Origin: Actinoallomurus purpureus
Lineage (GTDB): Bacteria; Actinomycetota; Actinomycetes; Streptosporangiales; Streptosporangiaceae
DNA: 64,000 nt
Assembly: GCF_024055795.1 (NCBI RefSeq)
Contig: NZ_JAMXMY010000012.1
Span: 124,001 to 188,000, forward strand
Direction: 5' to 3'
Under the pieces are notes generated by a model. It was not told where the DNA came from. It searched no databases and saw only the letters and a list, made by a program, of their open reading frames with translations. The position numbers and the translations under genes were made by a program. The first letter of the stretch is position 1, and each line of letters begins with the position of its first letter. Shown in pieces: positions 1,030 through 26,143 of the stretch.

Positions 1030-2220
1030 TCAGCCCTTCACGCAGATCAGCTGGCGCAGGTGGGCGACGACCTCCACGAGGTCGGACTGCGCCTCGATCA
1101 CCGACTCGATGTCCTTGTACGCCCCCGGGATCTCGTCGATCACGCCGGGGTCCTTCCGGCACTCGACGCCCCTGGTCTGCTCGATCAGGTCGTCGACGGT
1201 GAACGACCGCTTCGCCTGGTTGCGGCTCATCCTCCGGCCCGCGCCGTGCGACGCGGAGTTGAAGGCATTCTCGTTCCCCAGGCCGCGCACGATGTACGTG
1301 CCGGTCGCCATCGAACCCGGGATGATCCCGAGGTCACCGTCGCCCGCGCGGATCGCGCCCTTGCGGGTGACGAGCAGCTCGACGCCGTCGTAGACCTCCT
1401 CGGCCACGTAGTTGTGGTGGCAGGAGATGACGTCGTCCCAGCGGACCCGCTTCCCGGCGAAGAACCTCGTGACGACGTTCTGCGTCAGGGCCATCATCAC
1501 GGCACGGTTGCGCCGGGCGTAGTCCTGCGCCCAGAACAGGTCCCGGCGATACTCCTCCATCTTGCGCGTGCCGTTGATGAAGACCGCCAGGTCGCGGTCG
1601 GGCAGGTCCTGGTTGTGCGGCAGGCGCATCGCGGCCTCGATGTGGTGCTCCGCCAGCTCCTTGCCGATGTTGCGCGAGCCGGAGTGCAGCACGATCCAGA
1701 CCGAGCCCTCGTCGTCGGCGCAGACCTCCAGGAAGTGGTTGCCCGAGCCGAGCGTGCCCAGCTGCGAGGTCGCCTTCCCCCGGCGGGACCGCGCGACCGG
1801 CGCCAGCTCGTCGTAACGCTTCCAGAACTCGTACCAGCCGCGTTCCTTCAGCCCGGGAACGGCCGACGGGTCGACGGGATCCTTGTGCGCCCCGCGCCCG
1901 ACCGGCACCGCCTTCTCGATCTTCGCCCGCAGACGGCTGAGGTCGTCCGGCAGGTCCGCCACGGTGAGGCTGGACTTGACCGCGGTCATCCCGCAGCCGA
2001 TATCCACGCCGACCGCGGCCGGGGCCACGGCGTCCCGCATCGCGATCACCGAGCCGACCGTCGCGCCCTTCCCGTAGTGGACGTCGGGCATGACCGCGAC
2101 GCCGTGCACCCACGGCAGGCTCGACACGTTGCGCAGCTGGTCGAGCGCGACCGACTCGACGTCCGCGGGGTCGGTCCACATCCGGATCGGAACGTGGCCG
2201 CCCTTCATCGTGTACGGCAT
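1030..2220 (-). CDS. rtcB: RtcB family RNA ligase
   Basis: Encodes 396 residues of the RtcB family, which joins RNA 2',3'-cyclic phosphate or 3'-phosphate ends to 5'-OH ends using GTP and Mn2+. Visible family motifs are VMPDVHYGKGATVGSVIA near residue 45, VGVDIGCGMTAV near 75 (metal-binding Asp and Cys), LGSGNHFLEV near 157 and LHSGSRNIG. The length matches bacterial short RtcB proteins. An ATG six bases upstream (2226) touches the GAGAGGAG ribosome binding site, so the ATG at 2220, spaced six bases from it, is the better start. It stands alone; no rtcA, archease or regulator is beside it, so its RNA substrate is unknown. Confidence 0.9.
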   Translation of the reverse strand: MPYTMKGGHVPIRMWTDPADVESVALDQLRNVSSLPWVHGVAVMPDVHYGKGATVGSVIAMRDAVAPAAVGVDIGCGMTAVKSSLTVADLPDDLSRLRAKIEKAVPVGRGAHKDPVDPSAVPGLKERGWYEFWKRYDELAPVARSRRGKATSQLGTLGSGNHFLEVCADDEGSVWIVLHSGSRNIGKELAEHHIEAAMRLPHNQDLPDRDLAVFINGTRKMEEYRRDLFWAQDYARRNRAVMMALTQNVVTRFFAGKRVRWDDVISCHHNYVAEEVYDGVELLVTRKGAIRAGDGDLGIIPGSMATGTYIVRGLGNENAFNSASHGAGRRMSRNQAKRSFTVDDLIEQTRGVECRKDPGVIDEIPGAYKDIESVIEAQSDLVEVVAHLRQLICVKG

Positions 2221-2320
2221 CACCATCTCCTCTCCAGATCGTCGGTGAGCCGGGTCTATGACGCCAGACAGGGCGTGCCCGGTTCAACCCATTTAATGTT
2301 CGGTGACGGGTGTGCGCCGC

Positions 2321-4051
2321 TCAGCGGACGCGGCGGCGATCCCCGCTGCGTTCGGTGAGGCCACGTCGGTCGAGGTGCTCCAGCAGCGGGATCGCCACGC
2401 GCCGGCTGGTGCCCAGCGCGCGGCGCGCCTCGCTCGCGGTGAACGGCTGCGGCAGCCCGGCCAGCACACGGACGGCCTCGTCGTCCGCGCCAGGCAGCAG
2501 GACGACGCCGTCGGCGATCTTCAGGAGCAGGCCCGCGCGCACCGCCGCGGCCAGGGCGCGGCCCGTAAGACCCAGCTCCGCGAGCCGGTCCGCCTCCGGG
2601 GCGTGGAACCGATCCTTCTTCAGCTCCTCGCGCAGCCGTCGCAGCGCGTCGGCCACCGGTGCCGGCAGGCCGGCCGAGGCCGGTCCCCGGACCCTGCCGG
2701 CCTCCAACCGCAGCGTGGGGTGGGCGAGCGCGTCGACCAGCCGCCGGTCGGGCAGCTCCAGCAGGGCCCGCGCCGCCTCCACAGGAAGCCCCGCGTCGAG
2801 TGGTTCGGCGGCGTCGTGAGACCGCACCTCCTCGGCCAGCCGGTGGCGCAGCGCCGCCCAGTGCTCCGGGTCAGCGAGCCAGTCCCCGGCGACCGGCTCG
2901 GCGTCGGCGGTGATGCCCATGGCGAACAGCTCGCGCGCCCGGATGAGCCCGTACCGGCGGAGCAGCGCCCCGGCATCGGGGGTTCCGGCCGCCAGTTCGC
3001 GGGCGCGGTCGGCGGCGGCTCCCCGCCGCCGCAGCGCCGGGGGCCGTACGTCGAGCACGGTGACCCCCGCGACGCGGCGGGCGCCGGGGTCGCGCAGCAG
3101 CGCGCGGTCGCCGATGTGCAGGGGCAGTGGCCGGGTGAGCACGAGCCGCGCGGTGTCCTCCCCCAGGGGACGCAGGCGTACGGAAACGGCGGCGGAGCCG
3201 ATGTGCAGCACCGGCTCCCGTGGCAGCGTCCGGGCCTCCACCCCGTGGACGCGCGCGTCGACGACATCGGTGACCGTCCACTCGTCGCTCGTCAGCGCCA
3301 TGCCGCGGGCGACCTCGTCTCGGCCGACACCGCGCAGGTTGATCGCGACGCGGGCGACGGCGGACACGGTGTCGGCGGCCTCCTTGAGCGTCTGCAGGGC
3401 CCGGACCCGCACCGGGCGGCCGTCGAGACCGAGTTCGGCGCCGACGCGGATCGTCCCGGCGGGCAGGGTGCCGGTGACCACCGTGCCGCTGCCCTTGATC
3501 GTGAACGCCCGGTCGACCCAGACCCGCACGGGCGCCGTGGCATCGGGCGGGGGCAGCCGTGCCACCAGCCGATCGAGGGCCTCGCGCAGGGCGGGCAGGC
3601 CCGCGCCGGTGGTGCCGCTCACGGTGACCGCCTCGACCCGTCCCAGGCCGGTGCGGGCGATCTCCGCCGCCGCCTGGTCGCGGGCGGCGCCGGGGTCGGC
3701 GAGGTCGGCGCGGGTGACGACGAGCAGGCCGTGGCGGACGCCGAGGGCGTCGATCGCCGCGAGATGCTCGGCGGACTGGGGCATCCAGCCCTCGTCGGCG
3801 GCGACCACGAACATCACGGCGGGCGCCGGCCCGACGCCGGCGAGCATCGTGGTGACGAACCGCTCGTGGCCGGGCACGTCGACGAACGCGATCCGCTCTC
3901 CCGACGGGAGCGTCGTCCAGGCGTAGCCGAGTCCGATGGTCATGCCGCGGCGGCGCTCCTCGGCCCAGCGGTCGGGCTCCATCCCGGTCAGCGCCCGTAC
4001 GAGCGTCGACTTGCCGTGGTCGACGTGGCCGGCGGTGGCGATCACCTGCAC
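2321..4051 (-). CDS. selB: Selenocysteine-specific elongation factor SelB
   Basis: A 576-residue translation GTPase that carries Sec-tRNA(Sec) to UGA codons followed by a SECIS hairpin. G1 (GHVDHGKST, residues 8-16) and G3 (DVPGHERF) are plain, and the NKxD position reads TRAD. EF-Tu-like beta-barrel domains follow. The last ~200 residues form the winged-helix region, ending in SEARRALGTSRRVAIPLLEH, which binds the SECIS RNA. It is slightly shorter than E. coli SelB (614). The GTG start at 4051 has GGAGGGG six bases upstream and overlaps the selA stop by 10 bases, so the two are translationally coupled. The expected client is the TGA-containing formate dehydrogenase gene at 22-25 kb. Confidence 0.94.
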   Translation of the reverse strand: MQVIATAGHVDHGKSTLVRALTGMEPDRWAEERRRGMTIGLGYAWTTLPSGERIAFVDVPGHERFVTTMLAGVGPAPAVMFVVAADEGWMPQSAEHLAAIDALGVRHGLLVVTRADLADPGAARDQAAAEIARTGLGRVEAVTVSGTTGAGLPALREALDRLVARLPPPDATAPVRVWVDRAFTIKGSGTVVTGTLPAGTIRVGAELGLDGRPVRVRALQTLKEAADTVSAVARVAINLRGVGRDEVARGMALTSDEWTVTDVVDARVHGVEARTLPREPVLHIGSAAVSVRLRPLGEDTARLVLTRPLPLHIGDRALLRDPGARRVAGVTVLDVRPPALRRRGAAADRARELAAGTPDAGALLRRYGLIRARELFAMGITADAEPVAGDWLADPEHWAALRHRLAEEVRSHDAAEPLDAGLPVEAARALLELPDRRLVDALAHPTLRLEAGRVRGPASAGLPAPVADALRRLREELKKDRFHAPEADRLAELGLTGRALAAAVRAGLLLKIADGVVLLPGADDEAVRVLAGLPQPFTASEARRALGTSRRVAIPLLEHLDRRGLTERSGDRRRVR

Positions 4052-5346
4052 AGGTGCCCCTCCCCCGCCGCGACCGCCCGCTCGATCCGCCGGGCCAGCT
4101 CGGCGTCGTCGAGGTCGGACGGAAGGGTGCGCAGGTCGACGAGCAGGCGGCCGGACTCCAGCCGGCCGACGATCCCGGCGCGCCGGAGCGGATCGGCGTA
4201 CGACGCGGGGAGGCCGACGGCCGCGCTCGGCAGCTCGACACCGGGTGCGCCGCCGCCGCCGACCCGGGCGGTCGATCCGACGGCGAGGGCGTCGTGTTCG
4301 GCGAGCCGCTCGGCGAGGCGCTCGGCCCGCTGCCGCAGGAGGCGGGGGTCGGCGTGCAGGGCGTGCGCGGTGGGCGTCCGCGGGCCGCGGACGGTGGCCT
4401 CCAGCGCCGCGAGCGTGAGCTTGTCGACGCGCAGGGCGCGGGCCAGAGGATGGCGCCGCAGGCGTTCGATCAGGTCGGCCCGGCCCAGCATCAGGCCGGC
4501 CTGCGGACCGCCGAGCAGCTTGTCGCCGCTGGCGGTGACGAGGTCGGCGCCCTCCCTCAGGACCGTGGCGGCGTCGGGTTCCTCGGGCAGGACGGGCTCG
4601 GGGGCGAGCAGGCCGGAGCCGATGTCGACGACGACCGGGACGCCGAGCCGGGCGAGCTCGCGGACCGGCGCCTGGGCGGTGAACCCCTCGATGCGGAAGT
4701 TGGAGGGATGGACCTTGAGCACGAAACCGGTGTCCGGGCCGAGCGCGGCCTCGTAGTCGGCGGCGGTCGTGCGGTTGGTGGTGCCGACCTCGCGCAGCCG
4801 CGCGCCGGTGGAGACGAGCAGGTCGGGGAGGCGGAAGCCGTCCCCGATCTCCACCATCTCGCCGCGGCTGATCACGATCTCCCGGTCGCGTGCGAGGGCG
4901 GTGGCGGCCAGCACGAGGGCTGCGGCATTGTTGTTCACGATGTGGACCGCCTCGGCCGCCGGGCACGCCTCCGCCAGGGCGGCGAGGGTGCCGCCGCCGC
5001 GCCGGCTCCGGTGCCCGGTGAGCAGGTCGTACTCGACGTCGGTGCAGCCGGCGGCGGCGAGCACCGCCTCCCGGGCGGCCGCCGACAGCGGGGCACGGCC
5101 CAGATTCGTGTGCAGGAGGACGCCCGTCGCGTTGATCACGGGTCGCAGCGTCGTGGCGTGCGGCGGCAGCGACGCCACGGCCGCGTCGGCGACACCCTCG
5201 GCGGCGATCTCACCGCGACGCGCACGCTCCTGCGCCGCCGCGACGGCGGACTTCACGATGCCGCGCCCCAGCCGGAGGGTCGCCTCCGTGAGGCGCGGGT
5301 CGGCGAGCACGGCGTCCGTACGCGGCACCCGGCGTCGAGAGTCCAT
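4042..5346 (-). CDS. selA: L-seryl-tRNA(Sec) selenium transferase SelA
   Basis: A 434-residue PLP enzyme that converts Ser-tRNA(Sec) to Sec-tRNA(Sec) using selenophosphate. The N-terminal tRNA-binding helices (PRTDAVLADPRL) lead into the fold-type I domain. The PLP lysine lies in SGDKLLGGPQAG near residue 275, and the helper motifs ATGVLLHTNLGRAPLS and VDIGSGL are present. The length fits bacterial SelA (about 430-470). It is the upstream gene of a two-gene selA-selB operon, and its stop codon lies inside the start of selB. A divergent-type gap of about 50 bases separates it from the MarR gene downstream on the map. Confidence 0.94.
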   Translation of the reverse strand: MDSRRRVPRTDAVLADPRLTEATLRLGRGIVKSAVAAAQERARRGEIAAEGVADAAVASLPPHATTLRPVINATGVLLHTNLGRAPLSAAAREAVLAAAGCTDVEYDLLTGHRSRRGGGTLAALAEACPAAEAVHIVNNNAAALVLAATALARDREIVISRGEMVEIGDGFRLPDLLVSTGARLREVGTTNRTTAADYEAALGPDTGFVLKVHPSNFRIEGFTAQAPVRELARLGVPVVVDIGSGLLAPEPVLPEEPDAATVLREGADLVTASGDKLLGGPQAGLMLGRADLIERLRRHPLARALRVDKLTLAALEATVRGPRTPTAHALHADPRLLRQRAERLAERLAEHDALAVGSTARVGGGGAPGVELPSAAVGLPASYADPLRRAGIVGRLESGRLLVDLRTLPSDLDDAELARRIERAVAAGEGHLCR

Positions 5347-16439: not shown

Positions 16440-16535
16440 TGGCGGAGGCGTACGGGAATCGAACCCGCCGACGGCGCCGAGCGCCGTCCAAAGGTTTTGA
16501 AGACCTTGAGGGCCACCAGGCACCCTCCCGCCTCC
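16440..16535 (-). tRNA. selC: tRNA-Sec (anticodon UCA)
   Basis: On the minus strand the RNA begins GGAGGCGG and ends CGCCTCC-G-CCA, with CCA encoded at 16440-16442. The 7-base anticodon loop is CTTCAAA (anticodon TCA) on an AAGGT/ACCTT stem. The D arm has the long Sec-type stem (GAGGG/CCCTC plus a T-G pair). The long variable arm has the 7-base stem GACGGCG/CGCCGTC, and the T arm is GCGGG-TTCGATT-CCCGT. The total of 96 bases with CCA and the layout (extended acceptor, long variable arm) fit bacterial tRNA-Sec. Odd point: the eighth acceptor pair is G-A rather than a Watson-Crick pair. The yidC-like stop codon lies 14 bases upstream on the same strand. Confidence 0.95.
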
Positions 16536-17650: not shown

Positions 17651-18658
17651 ATGGGCAGCAGCGGAGCGCTTGGGACGACGTACCGCCTGACGCAGTACGC
17701 GCACGGCGGCGGGTGCGCCTGCAAGATCCCGCCCGGGGAGCTCGAAGAGGTCGTGGCCGGGCTCATCGACACCGATCGCCCGGACGACCTGCTGATCGGG
17801 CTGGACGACGGTGACGACGCCGCGGTCGTGCGGATCGAGGGTGACCGGGCGGTGGTGGCCACCGCCGACTTCTTCACTCCCGTCGTCGACGACCCGTACG
17901 ACTGGGGGCGGATCGCGGCGGCGAACGCGCTGTCGGACGTCTACGCCGTCGGCGGCGCTCCCGTCGTCGCGGTGAACCTCCTCGGCTGGCCCCGGGACAC
18001 GCTGCCGATGGACCTCGCACGCGAGGTGCTGCGCGGGGGACTCGACGTGGCGCGCGCGGCCGGGTGTCACGTCGCGGGAGGGCACAGCGTGGACGATCCC
18101 GAGCCGAAGTACGGGATGGCCGTCACGGGGCTGGCGCACCCCGAGCGGCTGCTGCGCCTGGACGCCGGGCGGCCCGGCACTCCCCTGTCCCTCACCAAGC
18201 CGCTCGGCGTCGGAGTGCTGAACACGCGGCACAAGGCGACGGGCGAGGTCTTCCCGCAGGCCGTCGCGGCGATGACCACACTGAACGCCGCTGCGTCACG
18301 GGCCGCGCTGGAGCGCGGCCACCGCTGCGCGACCGATGTCACCGGGTTCGGGCTTCTGGGGCACCTGTACAAGATGGCGCGGGCGAGCGGCGTCACCGCG
18401 GTGGTCGACTCCGCGGCCGTTCCCTACCTGGAGGGGGCACGCGACGCGGTGCGGGAGGGGTACGTCTCGGGAGGCACCCGACGCAATCTCGCCTGGGTGG
18501 CGCCGCACACGGACCTCGGCCGCGTGCCGGAGGAGGAGCGGCTGCTGCTGGCCGACGCCCAGACGTCCGGCGGCCTGCTCGTCGCCGGTGAGGTGCCGGG
18601 TGCGCCGGTGGTCGGCGAGCTCGTCGCCCGGCGTGACCATGCTCTGGTCGTCCGTTAG
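17651..18658 (+). CDS. selD: Selenide, water dikinase SelD (selenophosphate synthase)
   Basis: A 335-residue enzyme that makes selenophosphate from selenide and ATP, the selenium donor for SelA. The N-terminal active site reads HGGGCACKIPP. Cys22 takes the position that is Sec in some organisms, and Lys25 is the catalytic lysine, so this SelD is not itself a selenoprotein. ATP/metal motifs follow (DDAAVVRIEGD, VDDPYDWGRIAAANALSDVY, GGHSVDDPEPKYGMAVTG) and the C-terminal AIRS-like domain contains CATDVTGFGLLGHL. The ATG at 17651 has no obvious ribosome binding site. The gene is divergent from the DUF6412-yidC-tRNA-Sec group. Confidence 0.94.
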   Translation: MGSSGALGTTYRLTQYAHGGGCACKIPPGELEEVVAGLIDTDRPDDLLIGLDDGDDAAVVRIEGDRAVVATADFFTPVVDDPYDWGRIAAANALSDVYAVGGAPVVAVNLLGWPRDTLPMDLAREVLRGGLDVARAAGCHVAGGHSVDDPEPKYGMAVTGLAHPERLLRLDAGRPGTPLSLTKPLGVGVLNTRHKATGEVFPQAVAAMTTLNAAASRAALERGHRCATDVTGFGLLGHLYKMARASGVTAVVDSAAVPYLEGARDAVREGYVSGGTRRNLAWVAPHTDLGRVPEEERLLLADAQTSGGLLVAGEVPGAPVVGELVARRDHALVVR

Positions 18659-20311: not shown

Positions 20312-21268
20312 TCACGGCGTGGTGAGGCGTTCGCGCTGGGGCACGACCGTGTACTTCGGGTCCTCCGCCGAGGCGTGCCCGGCGTAGAGGACCGCGAAGC
20401 GCGTGCACAGCGCGCCTCCGGTGAGGGCCAGGCCGGCAACGACGCCGGCCACACGGCTCCGGCCCGCCGCGACGGCGCCGGCCGCCCCCGCGACGGTCAG
20501 CGCCCGCCCGGACCGCAGGAAGACGCCTGCGCGTCCGGCGCGGTACGGCTCGGAGACGAGGTCCGGCCGTTCCCGCAGGCCGACACCGCGTTCGAGGGCG
20601 CCGGCGGCGGCCAGTTCGAGGCCGGCGCCGATCAACGCCATCCGGCGCGCGGGTCCCGCGTCGCCGCGCGGCGTGGCGATCATGCCGATCGCGCCGCCGC
20701 TCGCCAGTGAGCTGCCGGTGAACAGCAGCGGCAGGTGACGGTAGGCCTCGTGCCAGGCGGGCACGGCCGTGTCGGCCAGCACGACGCCCGTGTAGGTGGC
20801 GACGAAGGGGCCGGTCACCGCGGCGGCCGCGCCCGCCGCACGGCCCAGCCCGGGAGCGATCCCGGTGACGGCGGAGGCCGCCGCCGCCATGGTGAACCCG
20901 CCCTGCCCGGCGAGGATCCACGAACCGACGCTCATCGGCGACGTCGGTTTGAACACGCGCAGCATGTTGAGGACGCGCTTTGGGCGGCCGAGCTCCGCGA
21001 TGAGCAGCCCGGCGCCTCCCGCGACCGCCGCGGCGGCCGTGAGCCTGCCGGTCAGGGCCAGCCGGGGCCGTCCGGTGGCGTCGGCCAGCGCGGCCATCGT
21101 CGAACTGGCGCCCGACAGCCCGCCGAGGTAGAGGTAGCCGGGCATGTGCGGGGCCTTCCAGCGCGGCTTCTTCAGCACCGGGCGGCCGTAGTAGGAGCGG
21201 AACTCCGCGCGCGGGACCATGCGCTCCTCGCGTCCCGCGCCGCGTCCGCCGTCACGGCCCGGCCGCAT
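20312..21268 (-). CDS. NrfD-like membrane subunit of formate dehydrogenase
   Basis: A 318-residue membrane protein with about eight segments (for example PGYLYLGGLSGASSTMAALA near residue 40 and SPMSVGSWILAGQGGFTMAA near 105). It belongs to the NrfD/PsrC family, which anchors Fe-S/molybdopterin enzymes and passes electrons to quinone. The ATG shares its A with the stop of the Fe-S subunit gene (TGATG), so translation is coupled. It replaces the cytochrome-b gamma subunit found in FdoGHI-type enzymes. It is the last gene of the formate dehydrogenase operon. Confidence 0.85.
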   Translation of the reverse strand: MRPGRDGGRGAGREERMVPRAEFRSYYGRPVLKKPRWKAPHMPGYLYLGGLSGASSTMAALADATGRPRLALTGRLTAAAAVAGGAGLLIAELGRPKRVLNMLRVFKPTSPMSVGSWILAGQGGFTMAAAASAVTGIAPGLGRAAGAAAAVTGPFVATYTGVVLADTAVPAWHEAYRHLPLLFTGSSLASGGAIGMIATPRGDAGPARRMALIGAGLELAAAGALERGVGLRERPDLVSEPYRAGRAGVFLRSGRALTVAGAAGAVAAGRSRVAGVVAGLALTGGALCTRFAVLYAGHASAEDPKYTVVPQRERLTTP

Positions 21269-22104
21269 CAGCGCCTCCCGAGGAACGACAGGGCCACTCC
21301 CCCGGCCAGGGCCAGGGCCGCGCCGCCGGCCCATCGCCACATCGCGGGCAGGTCGCGGGTGGTGACGACCGGGTCCGGCGGCAGACCGTACACCTCCGGC
21401 TCGTCGAGGAGCAGGAAGAACGCGCCCGCGCCGCCGACGCCGTCGCTGTCGTCCTCGCCGTACAGGCGCGCCTCCGTCACGCCCTCCTCGTGAAGCGTGT
21501 TCAGCCGGGCGGAGGCGCGTTCTCGCAGCTCGTCGAGGGGGCCGTACTGGATGGAGTCGGTCGGGCAGGCCTTGGCGCAGGCGGGTTCGAGTCCGTCGCC
21601 GATCCGGTCGTAGCACAGGGTGCACTTCCAGGCCCGGCCGTCGTCCTCGCGGCGGTCGATGACGCCGTACGGGCAGGCGGACACGCAGTAGGCACAGCCG
21701 TTACAGATGTCCTCCTGAACGACGACCGTGCCGAACTCGGTCCGGATCAGCGCGCCAGTGGGACAGACGTCGAGGCAGGCGGCGTGGGTGCAGTGCTTGC
21801 ACACGTCCGAGGCCATGAGCCAGCGCGTGTCGACGCCGTCGCCGACCTGGTGCGGCCGGGTCTGCTCGACGAACGCGACGTGCCGCCAGGTGCTCGCGCC
21901 GAGCGCGCCGGTGTTGTCGTACGACATCCCGGTGAGCGCGAACCCGTCGTCGGGGACGGCGTTCCATTCCTTGCAGGCGACCTCGCACGCCTTGCACCCG
22001 ATGCAGACCGAGGTGTCGGTGAAGAACCCCCGGCGCTCGGGCGGCTCGGTGTAGCCGGCGTCCTCGGCGACGTCCGGGAGCGGTCCGTACAGGCTGTTGC
22101 TCAT
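21268..22104 (-). CDS. Formate dehydrogenase Fe-S (beta) subunit
   Basis: A 278-residue ferredoxin-like electron-transfer subunit. Four clusters of cysteines are visible: CIGCKACEVACKEWN (residue ~33), CKHCTHAACLDVCPTG, CNGCAYCVSACPYGV, and CTLCYDRIGDGLEPACAKAC. This is the usual four-[4Fe-4S] arrangement. A single C-terminal helix (GGAALALAGGVALSFLGRR) anchors it to the membrane. GGAGG precedes the ATG, which starts 2 bases after the catalytic-subunit stop. It passes electrons from the catalytic subunit to the NrfD-like subunit. Confidence 0.93.
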   Translation of the reverse strand: MSNSLYGPLPDVAEDAGYTEPPERRGFFTDTSVCIGCKACEVACKEWNAVPDDGFALTGMSYDNTGALGASTWRHVAFVEQTRPHQVGDGVDTRWLMASDVCKHCTHAACLDVCPTGALIRTEFGTVVVQEDICNGCAYCVSACPYGVIDRREDDGRAWKCTLCYDRIGDGLEPACAKACPTDSIQYGPLDELRERASARLNTLHEEGVTEARLYGEDDSDGVGGAGAFFLLLDEPEVYGLPPDPVVTTRDLPAMWRWAGGAALALAGGVALSFLGRR

Positions 22105-22106
22105 GG

Positions 22107-25100
22107 TCAGTCCTCCGGGATCCCTGCCATGCGGCGGTAGCGGCGCACGAGGGCGCGCAGGGCCGGGCCCTGCGGGCGGCGTCCGGGCTGGACGTCGCAG
22201 GTGGCGACCTTGCTCTCCTGGATGTGGGTGTTGGCGTCCAGGACGATCGGCAGCAGGTCGTTGGCCGAGTCGCCGCGGACGATGCCGGCCGACCCCCAGT
22301 GGTACGGCAGCCCGATCTGGTGGATCACGCGACCCTGGATCCGCAGGGGCCTGACACGGTCGGTGACGAGGACGCGGGCCTCGATGGCGCTACGCGCGGA
22401 GATGATCGTCGCCCAGTCGCCGTGGACGAGGCCGCGCTCGGCGGCCAGCTCCGGCGACACCTCGCAGAACATCTCCGGTTGCAGCTCGGACAGGTACGGC
22501 AGGAAGCGGCTCATGCCGCCCGCCGTGTGCTGCTCGGTCAGCCGGTAGGTCGTGAAGACGTACGGGTAGACGTCGCCGCCGACGGGGTTGTAGCGGTTCC
22601 CCGGGCGCGGGTAGACCTGCCGGACGGGGTTGGCCTGCTGCCCGTACAGCAAGTTGGACACCGGCGACTCGTGCGGCTCGTAGTGCGCGGGCAGCGGCCC
22701 GTCGACCAGGCCGCGCGGCACGAACAGCCAGCCCTTGCCGTCGGTCTGCATGATGAACGGATCGGCTCCGCCGAGGGCGGCCTCGGCCGTGGCGTCCGGC
22801 GGAGGCTCGTACGACGGCGGCTTGGTCTTCTCGAAGTCGGGGACGTCGTGGCCGGTCCACTGCTCGCCGTCCCACCAGATGTAGGCCTTGCGCTCGCTCC
22901 ACGGGCGGCCCTGCGGGTCGGCGGAGGCGCGGTTGTAGAGGATGCGGCGGTTGGACGGCCAGGCCCAGCCCCACTCGGGCGCCACCCAGGACTGTTCCGC
23001 GCCGGGCTTGCGGCGGGCGGTCTGGTTGACGCCGTCGGCGTAGCAGCCGGAGTAGATCCAGCAGCCGCAGGACGTCGAGCCGTCGTCCCTCAGTGCGGTG
23101 AACCCGGTCAGGGTCTCGCCGTCGGCGTCGTAGCCGTTGATCTCGCGCAGCACCGCCTCCGCGGACGGGTCGCGGTACGGCCCCTCCTCGGGGTAGTCCC
23201 ACGTCAGGTCGAGGACGGGCCGGTCGACGGGATCGGTCGAACCGGCCAGCCGCTCGCGGATCCGCAGCCCGAGGTGGTACATGAACCACAGGTCGCTGCG
23301 GGCGTCGTCCGGCGGGTCGAGCGCCTTGTGGTGCCACTGCAGCAGCCGCTGGGTGTTGGTGAACGTCCCGTCCTTCTCCACGTGGGAGGCGGCGGGCAGG
23401 AAGAACACCTCGGTGCCGATCTCCTCGGCCGTCCGCTCGCCGGACTCGATCTCGGGGGACTCCTTCCAGAACATCGCGCTCTCGATGAGCTGCAGGTCCC
23501 GCACGACGAGCCAGTCGAGGGAGGCCAGCCCGAGTCGCTGCAACCGGCCGGCCGCCGAGCCCACGGCGGGGTTCTCCCCGAGGAGGAGGTAGCCCTTGAC
23601 CTTGCCGTCGATCTGGTCGAGGACCGTCTGGTACGTGCCGTGGTCGCCGGTGAGGCGCGGCAGGTAGTCGAAGCAGAAGTCGTTCTCCGCGTGGGCGGCG
23701 TCGCCCCACCACGCCTTCAGAAGGCTGATCATGTAGGCGCGCTTGTGCCCCCAGAAGCCGGTGTCGCCGGCGGCCCGCTCGAGGTAGGAGTCGAGGTCCT
23801 CGTGGTGGTGGGCGTACGGCATCGGCAGATAGCCCGGCAGCAGGTTGAAGAGCGTCGGTATGTCGGTGGAGCCCTGGATGCTCGCGTGCCCGCGCAGCAC
23901 GAGGATGCCGCCGCCGGGGCGCCCGATGTTGCCGAGCAGGAGCTGCAGAATCGCGGCGGTGCGGATGTACTGCACGCCGACGGTGTGCTGGGTCCAGCCC
24001 ACGCTGTAGACCCAGGCGGTGGTGCGGTCGGGCCCGGAGTTCGCGACGACCGCGTCGGCCAGCTCGGCGAAGTCGTTCGGCGCGATGCCGCACACCTGCT
24101 CGACCATCTCCGGGGTGTAGCGCGCGAAGTGCCGCTTCAGCACCTGGTAGACGCAGCGGGGGTGGCTCAGGGTCTCGTCGCGGTGCTCGGCGGCGTACGC
24201 CCACGTCTCCGGGTCGTAGGACGAGGTCTCGGCGTCGAACCCGGAGAAGAGCCCGTCGAGGTCCTCGGTGTCCCGGAAGTTCTCGTTGAGGATCACCGAC
24301 GCGTTGGTGTAGTGCAGGACGTACTCGCGGAAGTCGTGCCCGCCGCTCAGCATGTGGTTGATCAGCGCGCCGAGCAGGACGATGTCGCTGCCCGCGCGGA
24401 TCGGCAGGTGGCGGTGGGCCATCGCGCTCGTGCGGGTGAACCTCGGGTCGACGTGGAAGATCCGCGCTCCGCGCGCCTTCGCCTCCATCACCCACTGGAA
24501 CCCGACCGGATGGCACTCGGCCATGTTCGCGCCCTGAATGACGATGCAGTCGGAGTTCGCGAGGTCCTGCTGGAACGTCGTGGCGCCGCCGCGCCCGAAA
24601 CTGGTCCCCAGACCGGGGACGGTGGCGGAGTGTCAAATACGCGCCTGGTTCTCGATCTGGATCGCCCCCAGCGCGGTCCAGAGCTTCTTGATGAGGTAGT
24701 TCTCCTCGTTGTCGAGCGTGGCGCCCCCGAGGCTGGCGAAGCCCATCGTGCGGCGCACCGGCTTGTCCTCGAAGGCGTCCTGCCAGCCGGCGCGGCGGGC
24801 CGCGATGACCCGGTCGGCGATCATGTCCATCGCCTCGTCGAGGCCGAGCGGTTCCCACTCGGTGGCGTACGGGCGGCGGTACAGGACCGTGGTCTGCCGA
24901 GTCGGCGAGGTGACGAGCTGCTTGCTGGCCGAACCCTTGGGGCAGAGCCGGCCGCGGGAGATCGGGGAGTTCGGGTCACCCTCGATCTGGACGACCTTCT
25001 CGTCCTTCACGTAGACCTTCTGCCCGCAGCCGACGGCACAGTAGGGGCAGACGGAGTCGGCGACCCGGTCGGCCGTCCGGGTGCGCGGCACCAGGGCGTC

Positions 25101-25187
25101 CGTGCGCCCGGAGCGGGCGGCCCGGCCGCGTCCCAGCGGGTCGGTGCCGGTGAGCTGGCGGATCACCGGCCAGGACTCGATGCCCAC
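22107..25187 (-). CDS. Formate dehydrogenase catalytic subunit, selenoprotein (Sec185 encoded by TGA)
   Basis: A 1026-residue molybdopterin (bis-MGD) enzyme oxidising formate to CO2. The frame is split by TGA at 24633-24635, exactly where the family has the active-site Sec or Cys: QIENQARI[19 protein letters not shown]. Downstream reading stays in frame. A hairpin with loop GGTCT follows 12 bases later, and selA, selB, selD and tRNA-Sec are all in this window. The TGA is therefore read as selenocysteine. The N-terminal [4Fe-4S] site is CPYCAVGCG (residues 47-55) with the fourth Cys in GRLCPKG. Further motifs are [12 protein letters not shown] and the C-terminal Mo-dinucleotide domain. The GTG at 25187 is the family's usual start. 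No Tat signal is seen, so the enzyme faces the cytoplasm. Confidence 0.95.
24604..24620 (-). promoter_or_regulatory. SECIS element of the formate dehydrogenase gene
   Basis: On the minus strand GTCCCC-GGTCT-GGGGAC forms a perfect 6-base stem with loop GGTCT. It starts 12 bases after the TGA, and the loop begins 18 bases after it. The distance and the GGUC-containing loop match the SelB-binding hairpin of E. coli fdhF (loop AGGUCU). Confidence 0.88.
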
Positions 25188-25333
25188 GTCTGCTGGTCAG
25201 CCTTCCCCCATCGAACGGCGTCCCGTGCCCACCCCTTTCCCCTTTCCCGGATTCTGAAGCCTCATGGGCCGCGACTTTCTCGCGGACGCGGACGCCGCCC
25301 GTGATCCGGTTCGGCACGCGGTACCGTCGGATC

Positions 25334-26143
25334 ATGGGCCGAGTGACCGTGCGACGGCGGATCGCGCACATCGACGAACGCGGACGGCGGGCCATGCCCG
25401 ACACGTTGGTCGTGGAGGAACCCCTCGAGATCCGCCTGGGAGGGCGTCCGCTGTCGGTCACCATGCGGACGCCGGGGAACGACTTCGATCTGATCACCGG
25501 GTTCCTGTACGCCGAGGGCGTCATCCGCGCGCCGGACGACGTCGCCGCGATGCGTTACTGCGCCGACACCGACACCTTCAACGTCGTCGACGTCACGCTG
25601 GCCGCGGAGGTGCGCCCGCCGGAGGTCTCGGTGGAGCGCTCCTTCTACACGACCAGCGCGTGCGGGGTGTGCGGCAAGACGAGCATCGACGCGATCCGGC
25701 AGCGGGCGTCGTACGACGTCCGGTCCGACGCGACCGTCCTCGACCCGGAGGTCCTGACCGCCCTGCCGGACACGCTGCGCCGGGCGCAACGGGTGTTCGA
25801 ACGGACCGGCGGGCTGCACGCCGCCGGACTGTTCGACGCGAACGGGGCGCTCCTCACCCTCCGCGAGGACGTCGGGCGGCACAACGCGGTCGACAAGGTG
25901 ATCGGCTGGGCGCTGAAGGACGGGCGGCTTCCGCTGACCGGTCATGTCCTCCTGGTCAGCGGCCGCGCGTCGTTCGAGCTGACCCAGAAGGCCCTGCTGG
26001 CCGGGATACCGGCGCTGGCGGCCGTGTCGGCGCCGTCCTCGCTCGCCGCCGAGCTGGCCGAGGAGGCCGGCATGACGCTCATCGGGTTCCTTCGCGGACG
26101 CTCGATGAACGTCTACGCGGGGGCCGATCGGATCAAGGACTGA
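25334..26143 (+). CDS. fdhD: Formate dehydrogenase accessory sulfurtransferase FdhD
   Basis: A 269-residue protein that passes sulfur from a cysteine desulfurase to the molybdenum cofactor of formate dehydrogenase. The swapping cysteines are in [10 protein letters not shown] near residue 111. Family motifs include [18 protein letters not shown] and [18 protein letters not shown], and [10 protein letters not shown] ends the protein. The ATG at 25334 matches the usual actinobacterial start (MGRVTVRRR). No ribosome binding site precedes it, so the mRNA may be leaderless. It is divergent from the formate dehydrogenase operon across 146 bases, and the hydrolase at 26166 follows after 22 bases. Confidence 0.93.

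Follow-up and report, generated by a model that had tools for sequence, protein, structure and literature searches.

An in-frame TGA in the formate dehydrogenase gene of Actinoallomurus purpureus very probably encodes selenocysteine (Sec), a reading to which we give a probability of about 96%. Judged from sequence, the codon (positions 24635 to 24633 of the 64,000-nucleotide stretch of DNA analysed here, hereafter the window) would be read by tRNA-Sec(UCA) together with SelB by way of a downstream hairpin, yielding a full-length formate dehydrogenase (FDH) alpha subunit with Sec at residue 185. Sec insertion is supported because the codon lies at the active-site position, the hairpin fits the bSECIS model and shows compensatory changes, homologues with Cys at the site lack the hairpin, and selA, selB, selC, and selD co-occur with the gene. 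The original prediction had named this TGA a Sec codon with a SECIS hairpin, and the bSECIS fit, the covariation, the Sec/Cys contrast, and the co-occurrence with tRNA-Sec uphold it. The result resolves how this large respiratory enzyme, which a naive ORF caller breaks into two, should be annotated, and it gives actinomycetes a covariation-supported SECIS.

Table 1. Features of the formate dehydrogenase and selenocysteine genes in the window
Feature	Position	Strand	Evidence and remarks
selB, Sec-specific elongation factor	2321-4051	minus	TIGR00475 286.9 bits (cut-off 242), on longer ORF 2321-4966
selA, L-seryl-tRNA(Sec) selenium transferase	4042-5346	minus	PF03841 334.6 bits
selC, tRNA-Sec, anticodon UCA	16440-16535	minus	ARAGORN; Rfam RF01852 76.7 bits (gathering score 47)
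selD, selenide, water dikinase	17651-18658	plus	TIGR00476 390 bits (cut-off 125)
fdhC, NrfD-type membrane anchor	20312-21268	minus	PF03916 NrfD 43 bits (cut-off 25.8), on longer ORF 20312-21625
fdhB, iron-sulphur beta subunit	21268-22104	minus	Fer4 domains; best NCBIfam TIGR01582 185.1 bits, below cut-off 334.7
fdhA, formate dehydrogenase alpha subunit	22107-25187	minus	1026 residues, predicted Sec185, GTG start, TGA stop; read-through translation
Predicted SECIS hairpin	24604-24620	minus	6 bp stem, GGUCU loop; covariation, Sec/Cys contrast
Predicted UGA Sec codon at active-site Sec/Cys position	24633-24635	minus	Sequence; alignment to PDB 1kqf_A
ATT codon directly 5' of UGA	24636-24638	minus	Third base A/U in all class-level Sec contexts examined
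fdhD, formate dehydrogenase accessory sulfurtransferase	25301-26143	plus	NF001943 370 bits (cut-off 269); divergent from fdhA

One gene across the TGA

The two sides of the TGA belong to a single formate dehydrogenase frame, as originally predicted. The NCBIfam profile for actinobacterial formate dehydrogenase (NF041513, formate_DH_Act; cut-off 1400) gave 333 bits for the 184 residues before the TGA and 1566 bits for the 841 residues after it, each half matching at its proper place in the profile, and 1927.4 bits for the gene read through. The product carries three Pfam molybdopterin-enzyme domains and also scores above the cut-off of the FDH-N alpha profile (TIGR01553, 930.1 versus 814.2 bits). 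Its best solved relative is Escherichia coli FDH-N (1kqf_A, 730 bits), and the TGA aligns with the X at the Sec site of that protein, which confirms the predicted placement at the active-site Sec/Cys position. The A. purpureus genome contains one NF041513-type match.

A mechanical ORF caller breaks fdhA into pieces of 184 and 805 codons. Automatic annotation had been expected to split the gene in this way, but this does not always happen: the fdnG gene of a Tsukamurella plasmid is annotated as one CDS across its TGA, in a gene table that does not flag joined pieces. As a separate observation, the fdhA protein is apparently about 40 residues short near residue 333, where the NF041513 profile numbering jumps. 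Nearly all relatives, among the matches listed, align in two pieces in this region, and that of one genome (G109) aligns in one.

Neighbouring genes and selenocysteine machinery

All four genes of the bacterial Sec-decoding trait, selA, selB, selC, and selD, are present in the window. The original prediction placed them within 20 kb of the TGA, which holds for selD and tRNA-Sec (6–8 kb) but not strictly for selA, at 19.3–20.6 kb, or for selB, at 20.6–22.3 kb. The GTP_EFTU and SelB-wing_3 domains of selB lie on 2321-4045, and its GTG start overlaps the end of selA, just as the ATG of fdhC overlaps the stop of fdhB (both starts read from the sequence). We also note a gene for an RtcB-type RNA ligase adjoining selB (1030-2226, minus strand, 412.7 bits).

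Under the proposed mechanism, SelB, tethered by the hairpin at 24620-24604, would deliver tRNA-Sec(UCA) to the ribosome at the UGA. The product would be the complete alpha subunit of a molybdenum or tungsten formate dehydrogenase, with Sec185 acting as a metal ligand. It would oxidize formate, and its likely partners are the iron-sulphur subunit and the NrfD-type membrane anchor.

Across a draw of 150 genomes from the order, tRNA-Sec was found in all 50 genomes with a TGA copy and in 5 of the 50 whose copies all have Cys. We counted tRNA-Sec at 66 bits or more, a line set after a gap between 66.8 and 52.8 bits had been seen; the search gave some match in all 150 genomes and 76 above the gathering score. 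Among the five Cys-only genomes with tRNA-Sec, one (G050) carries, in addition, a distant TGA gene of the FDH-N type, and the tRNA of another (G136) has the anticodon ACA. Genomes with neither a TGA nor a Cys copy had tRNA-Sec in 14 of 50 cases (G004, G015, G029, G033, G039, G041, G042, G048, G063, G092, G093, G100, G102, and G112), and these 14, which have no close match to the formate dehydrogenase family, presumably make other selenoproteins. A search with the selB family could not inform on co-occurrence, since it also picks up elongation factor Tu and matched 149 of 150 genomes at E 1e-30.

The hairpin downstream of the TGA

The predicted hairpin is found exactly 12 nt past the TGA, with the segments GTCCCC (24620-24615), GGTCT (24614-24610), and GGGGAC (24609-24604); it is on the minus strand, which the prediction left unstated. 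The bSECIS model, as outlined in PMC13188914, describes an apical loop of 3–9 nt on an upper stem of 4–16 bp, at least one G within the first two loop positions, 16–37 nt from the UGA to the apical loop, and a minimum free energy of -7.5 kcal/mol or lower. Compared with that outline (PMC13188914), the fdhA hairpin lies within every range: the loop has 5 nt and the stem 6 bp, the loop reads GGUCU, the UGA-to-loop spacing is 18 nt, and the 23-nt hairpin has an energy of -11.4 kcal/mol.

Folding energy is weak evidence for this hairpin, and the comparative evidence is strong. The energy is no proof because shuffled sequences can match it and a 48-nt stretch folds otherwise. For the 23-nt hairpin, 18 of 200 shuffles folded equally well (z -1.41). 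The 41 nt from the UGA retained the hairpin at -14.1 kcal/mol, a value that 56 of 200 shuffles equalled (z -0.48), and the lowest-energy fold of the 48 nt from the UGA (-18.5 kcal/mol) was another one without the hairpin.

We also scanned the 9.25-Mb A. purpureus genome for a SECIS-like pattern (UGAC and, correctly spaced from it, an RGUYU loop with three strong bases to either side), which would overlook selenoproteins with a differently shaped SECIS. Among its 12 occurrences, only the FDH site formed all six stem pairs, and it alone joined a near-complete stem to a frame of more than 100 open codons on both sides. Of the other sites, two with five of six pairs had short frames, and one with a long frame formed four of six pairs.

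Covariation and Sec/Cys contrast

Alignment with other actinomycete FDHs, the check proposed with the original prediction, bears out the conservation of the hairpin. The class set comprised 166 rows covering the Sec site, which reduced to 141 distinct contexts: 101 with TGA, 1 with TAG, 37 with TGC, and 2 with TGT, that is, 102 stop-type contexts including that of the window and 39 Cys contexts. By our reading of the match list, all class-level close matches covering the site were retrieved by the end, the last 19 of them later, and order-level matches in part. With the U of the UGA numbered as position 1, the set of pairs 18-30, 19-29, 20-28, and 21-27 was complete in 100 of the 102 stop-type contexts and in none of the 39 Cys contexts, a contrast that counts as one comparison, not 39, because Sec and Cys changed only once on the tree. 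The two stop-type exceptions (L152 and L158) have G-G at 18-30. The third base U24, a silent position, was U in 102/102 stop-type and 3/39 Cys contexts. Among 20 TGA sites retrieved later, 15 of which were new contexts, the upper stem was kept in all 20.

Changes within the stem were compensatory. Pair 18-30 was C-G in 63 of the 102 stop-type contexts, U-A in 23, U-G in 9, G-U in 4, G-C in 1, and G-G in 2, and pair 16-32 was G-C in 99, A-U in 2, and G-U in 1; the inner pairs 19-29, 20-28, and 21-27 were C-G throughout. Watson-Crick pairing at 18-30 occurred in 87 contexts compared with a shuffled mean of 53.0, a level reached in none of 10,000 shuffles, uncorrected for kinship. On a quick DNA tree from which the Sec site was left out, position 18 changed at least 20 times and position 30 at least 14 times. 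In an independent-pairs test of 18-30, there were 6 supported pairs, of which on average 3.4 were concordant, 0 discordant, and 2.6 unchanged; this number is too small for significance.

The loop was GGUCU in 88 stop-type contexts, AGUCU in 11, and AGUUU in 3. The GGUC core that the original prediction compared with E. coli fdhF is thus present in the window but is not strict in relatives. Position 17 in the fdhA hairpin is U, with no bulge predicted, and the base opposite it in the 102 contexts was A in 76, G in 24, and U in 2. The conservation of U17 proves nothing, because it coincides with the middle position of a conserved Val/Ile codon.

In the wider phylum, 179 of 396 genomes had a match, and 108 loci were analysed (two of them, L307 and L319, from genomes already in the class set). 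These comprised 106 TGA sites and 2 Cys sites. The stem was looser here, with 18-30 formed in 88 of the 106, 19-29 in 83, 20-28 in 105, and 21-27 in 81. U24 was kept in 105/106 TGA sites and G23 in 99/106.

Alternative explanations

That the TGA is a nonsense mutation or sequencing error, and fdhA a pseudogene split in two, is very improbable. The two pieces returned by the ORF caller are what speaks for it, but 101 of the 102 distinct stop-type contexts carry TGA at this site, as do 49 other genomes of the order draw, compensatory changes preserve the hairpin, and the open frame extends 187 codons upstream of the TGA and at least 508 codons beyond it. Selenium-free reading of the UGA by a near-cognate tRNA, such as that for Trp or Cys, we consider more improbable still. 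Some UGA readthrough is common in bacteria; however, this UGA sits at the Sec/Cys site, stop-type copies retain the hairpin and U24, which most or all Cys copies lack, and every genome with a TGA copy in the draw has tRNA-Sec.

Equally far-fetched is the idea that the hairpin simply arises from GC-rich coding sequence and that SelB uses something else. Compensatory substitutions at 18-30 and 16-32 argue against this, as does a silent U24 that is invariant in stop-type contexts and rare in Cys contexts, even though shuffled sequences can fold as well as the 23-nt hairpin and the 48-nt stretch favours another fold.

The base before the stop codon

The codon before the stop showed a pattern of its own. 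It was ATT in 63 of the 102 stop-type class contexts, ATA in 32, and GTT in 7, so its third base (the -1 base) was A or U in all of them, compared with 94% GC at upstream third positions; ATC, GTC, and GTG never occurred. The codon before Cys was GTC in 21, GTG in 17, and CTG in 1 of the 39 Cys contexts, with an A or U ending in none. On the tree, the -1 base switched at least 23 times from U to A or back, with no C or G seen, and the 20 later-retrieved TGA sites all had A or U. In the phylum set, 92 of 106 sites had A or U, and the 14 exceptions were ATC (8), TTG (4), ATG (1), and GTC (1).

Outside Actinobacteria, the -1 base was C in 62 of 70 TGA sites, a sample drawn from the best 80 of 581 relatives (74 TGA rows minus three actinobacterial and one from Thermomicrobium) in which rows were not collapsed to distinct ones, many sites are closely related, and C is favoured by composition in the GC-rich ones. 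Sites in this sample with less than 50% GC at third positions had C in 10 of 10 cases. A few genes cross these lines. FDH-N-type genes in two actinobacteria (L188 and L189) have GTT before the TGA, and a gene nearer the actinobacterial type in the alphaproteobacterium Indioceanicola (L199, 51.5% identity to the window protein) has GTC. These cases are few but agree with an effect of the host on the -1 base. Two more FDH-N-like actinobacterial sites, from the phylum set, end otherwise (e.g. L377, with GTC), which speaks against a strict rule set by the host.

We tentatively suggest, at somewhat less than even odds, that the recoding signal has a lineage-specific 5' part, with selection favouring A or U at the -1 base in actinomycetes despite their GC-rich genes and C in proteobacteria even when AT-rich. 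Possibly the balance of Sec insertion against termination depends, via this base, on the codon-tRNA pair in the P site or on the host release factor 2. The -1 base is at present an unexplained observation with no demonstrated mechanism, and it may be new; the literature searched, judged by titles and abstract openings, yielded no upstream-codon rule. The recent predictor deep-Sep is described as using the 300 nt after the codon to model the Sec signal (PMC12013277). If functional, the -1 base would add a testable upstream element to that signal.

We also considered whether the TTGACA formed by ATT-TGA-CAC might be a promoter -35 box. This was rejected by eye, as no -10-like hexamer lies at the usual distance and the copies with ATA have no TTGACA.

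Unusual anticodons in related genomes

Six tRNAs beside selB that score as tRNA-Sec (Rfam 67–71 bits) carry the anticodon ACA, which would read the Cys codon UGU (L193, L194, L090, L092, L093, and L094, in genomes G050, G100, G136, G147, G092, and G029). Five of the six genomes have another tRNA-Sec match above 66 bits, with UCA seen in G050 and G100. The gene order at L193 is a selD-like gene, selA, selB, and the tRNA. Insertion of Sec at sense codons including UGU has already been reported (PMC10778597), and no convincing candidate emerged when we looked for UGU-type Sec genes around the loci with ACA anticodons.

Another genome (G500, loci L111 and L402) has TAG at the FDH Sec site and a tRNA-Sec-like gene (64 bits) with the anticodon CUA. 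This formate dehydrogenase, with UAG-coded Sec, is of a known kind, as described for FDH in Geodermatophilaceae (PMC5330540).

Comparison with known systems

The TGA site and the hairpin are common to the window gene and its class within the NF041513 family. E. coli FDH-N (fdnG, PDB 1kqf) has 41% identity to the window fdhA and the same Sec site. By eye, pairs 18-30 to 21-27 of the fdnG SECIS align without gaps with the window hairpin. The predicted fdnG fold leaves U17 bulged, whereas U17 of the window hairpin can pair with A31, and the codon before the UGA is GTC in fdnG but ATT in the window. In E. coli fdhF, the 18 nt from UGA to GGUC equal the spacing in the window; the fdhF hairpin has a bulged U17, which SelB contacts in SECIS elements of the E. 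coli type.

The enzymes differ further in their protein parts. Unlike E. coli FDH-N, the window fdhA has an N-terminus without a twin-arginine pair (by eye), and the window anchor is of the NrfD type in place of the FdnI-type cytochrome b that forms the gamma subunit of FDH-N. We filed the window system under NF041513 and not under the FDH-N complex because its beta subunit scores below the TIGR01582 cut-off and its anchor is NrfD-type.

The Tsukamurella plasmid carries fdnG, a 4Fe-4S subunit gene, nrfD, selD, selA, and selB, in this order, within 10 kb. Actinomycetospora chiangmaiensis is described as having Sec-FDHs, selenium-dependent formate removal, and FDH subunits in its proteome (PMC7176365). 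That species and Corynebacterium aurimucosum (PMC2830990) have Sec-FDHs with selA, selB, and selD, like the window, although the account of A. chiangmaiensis gives three Sec-FDH systems (PMC7176365) compared with one family match in A. purpureus. Since such actinobacterial Sec-FDHs (PMC7176365, PMC2830990) and UAG-coded Sec (PMC5330540) are in print, the system in the window is of a known kind.
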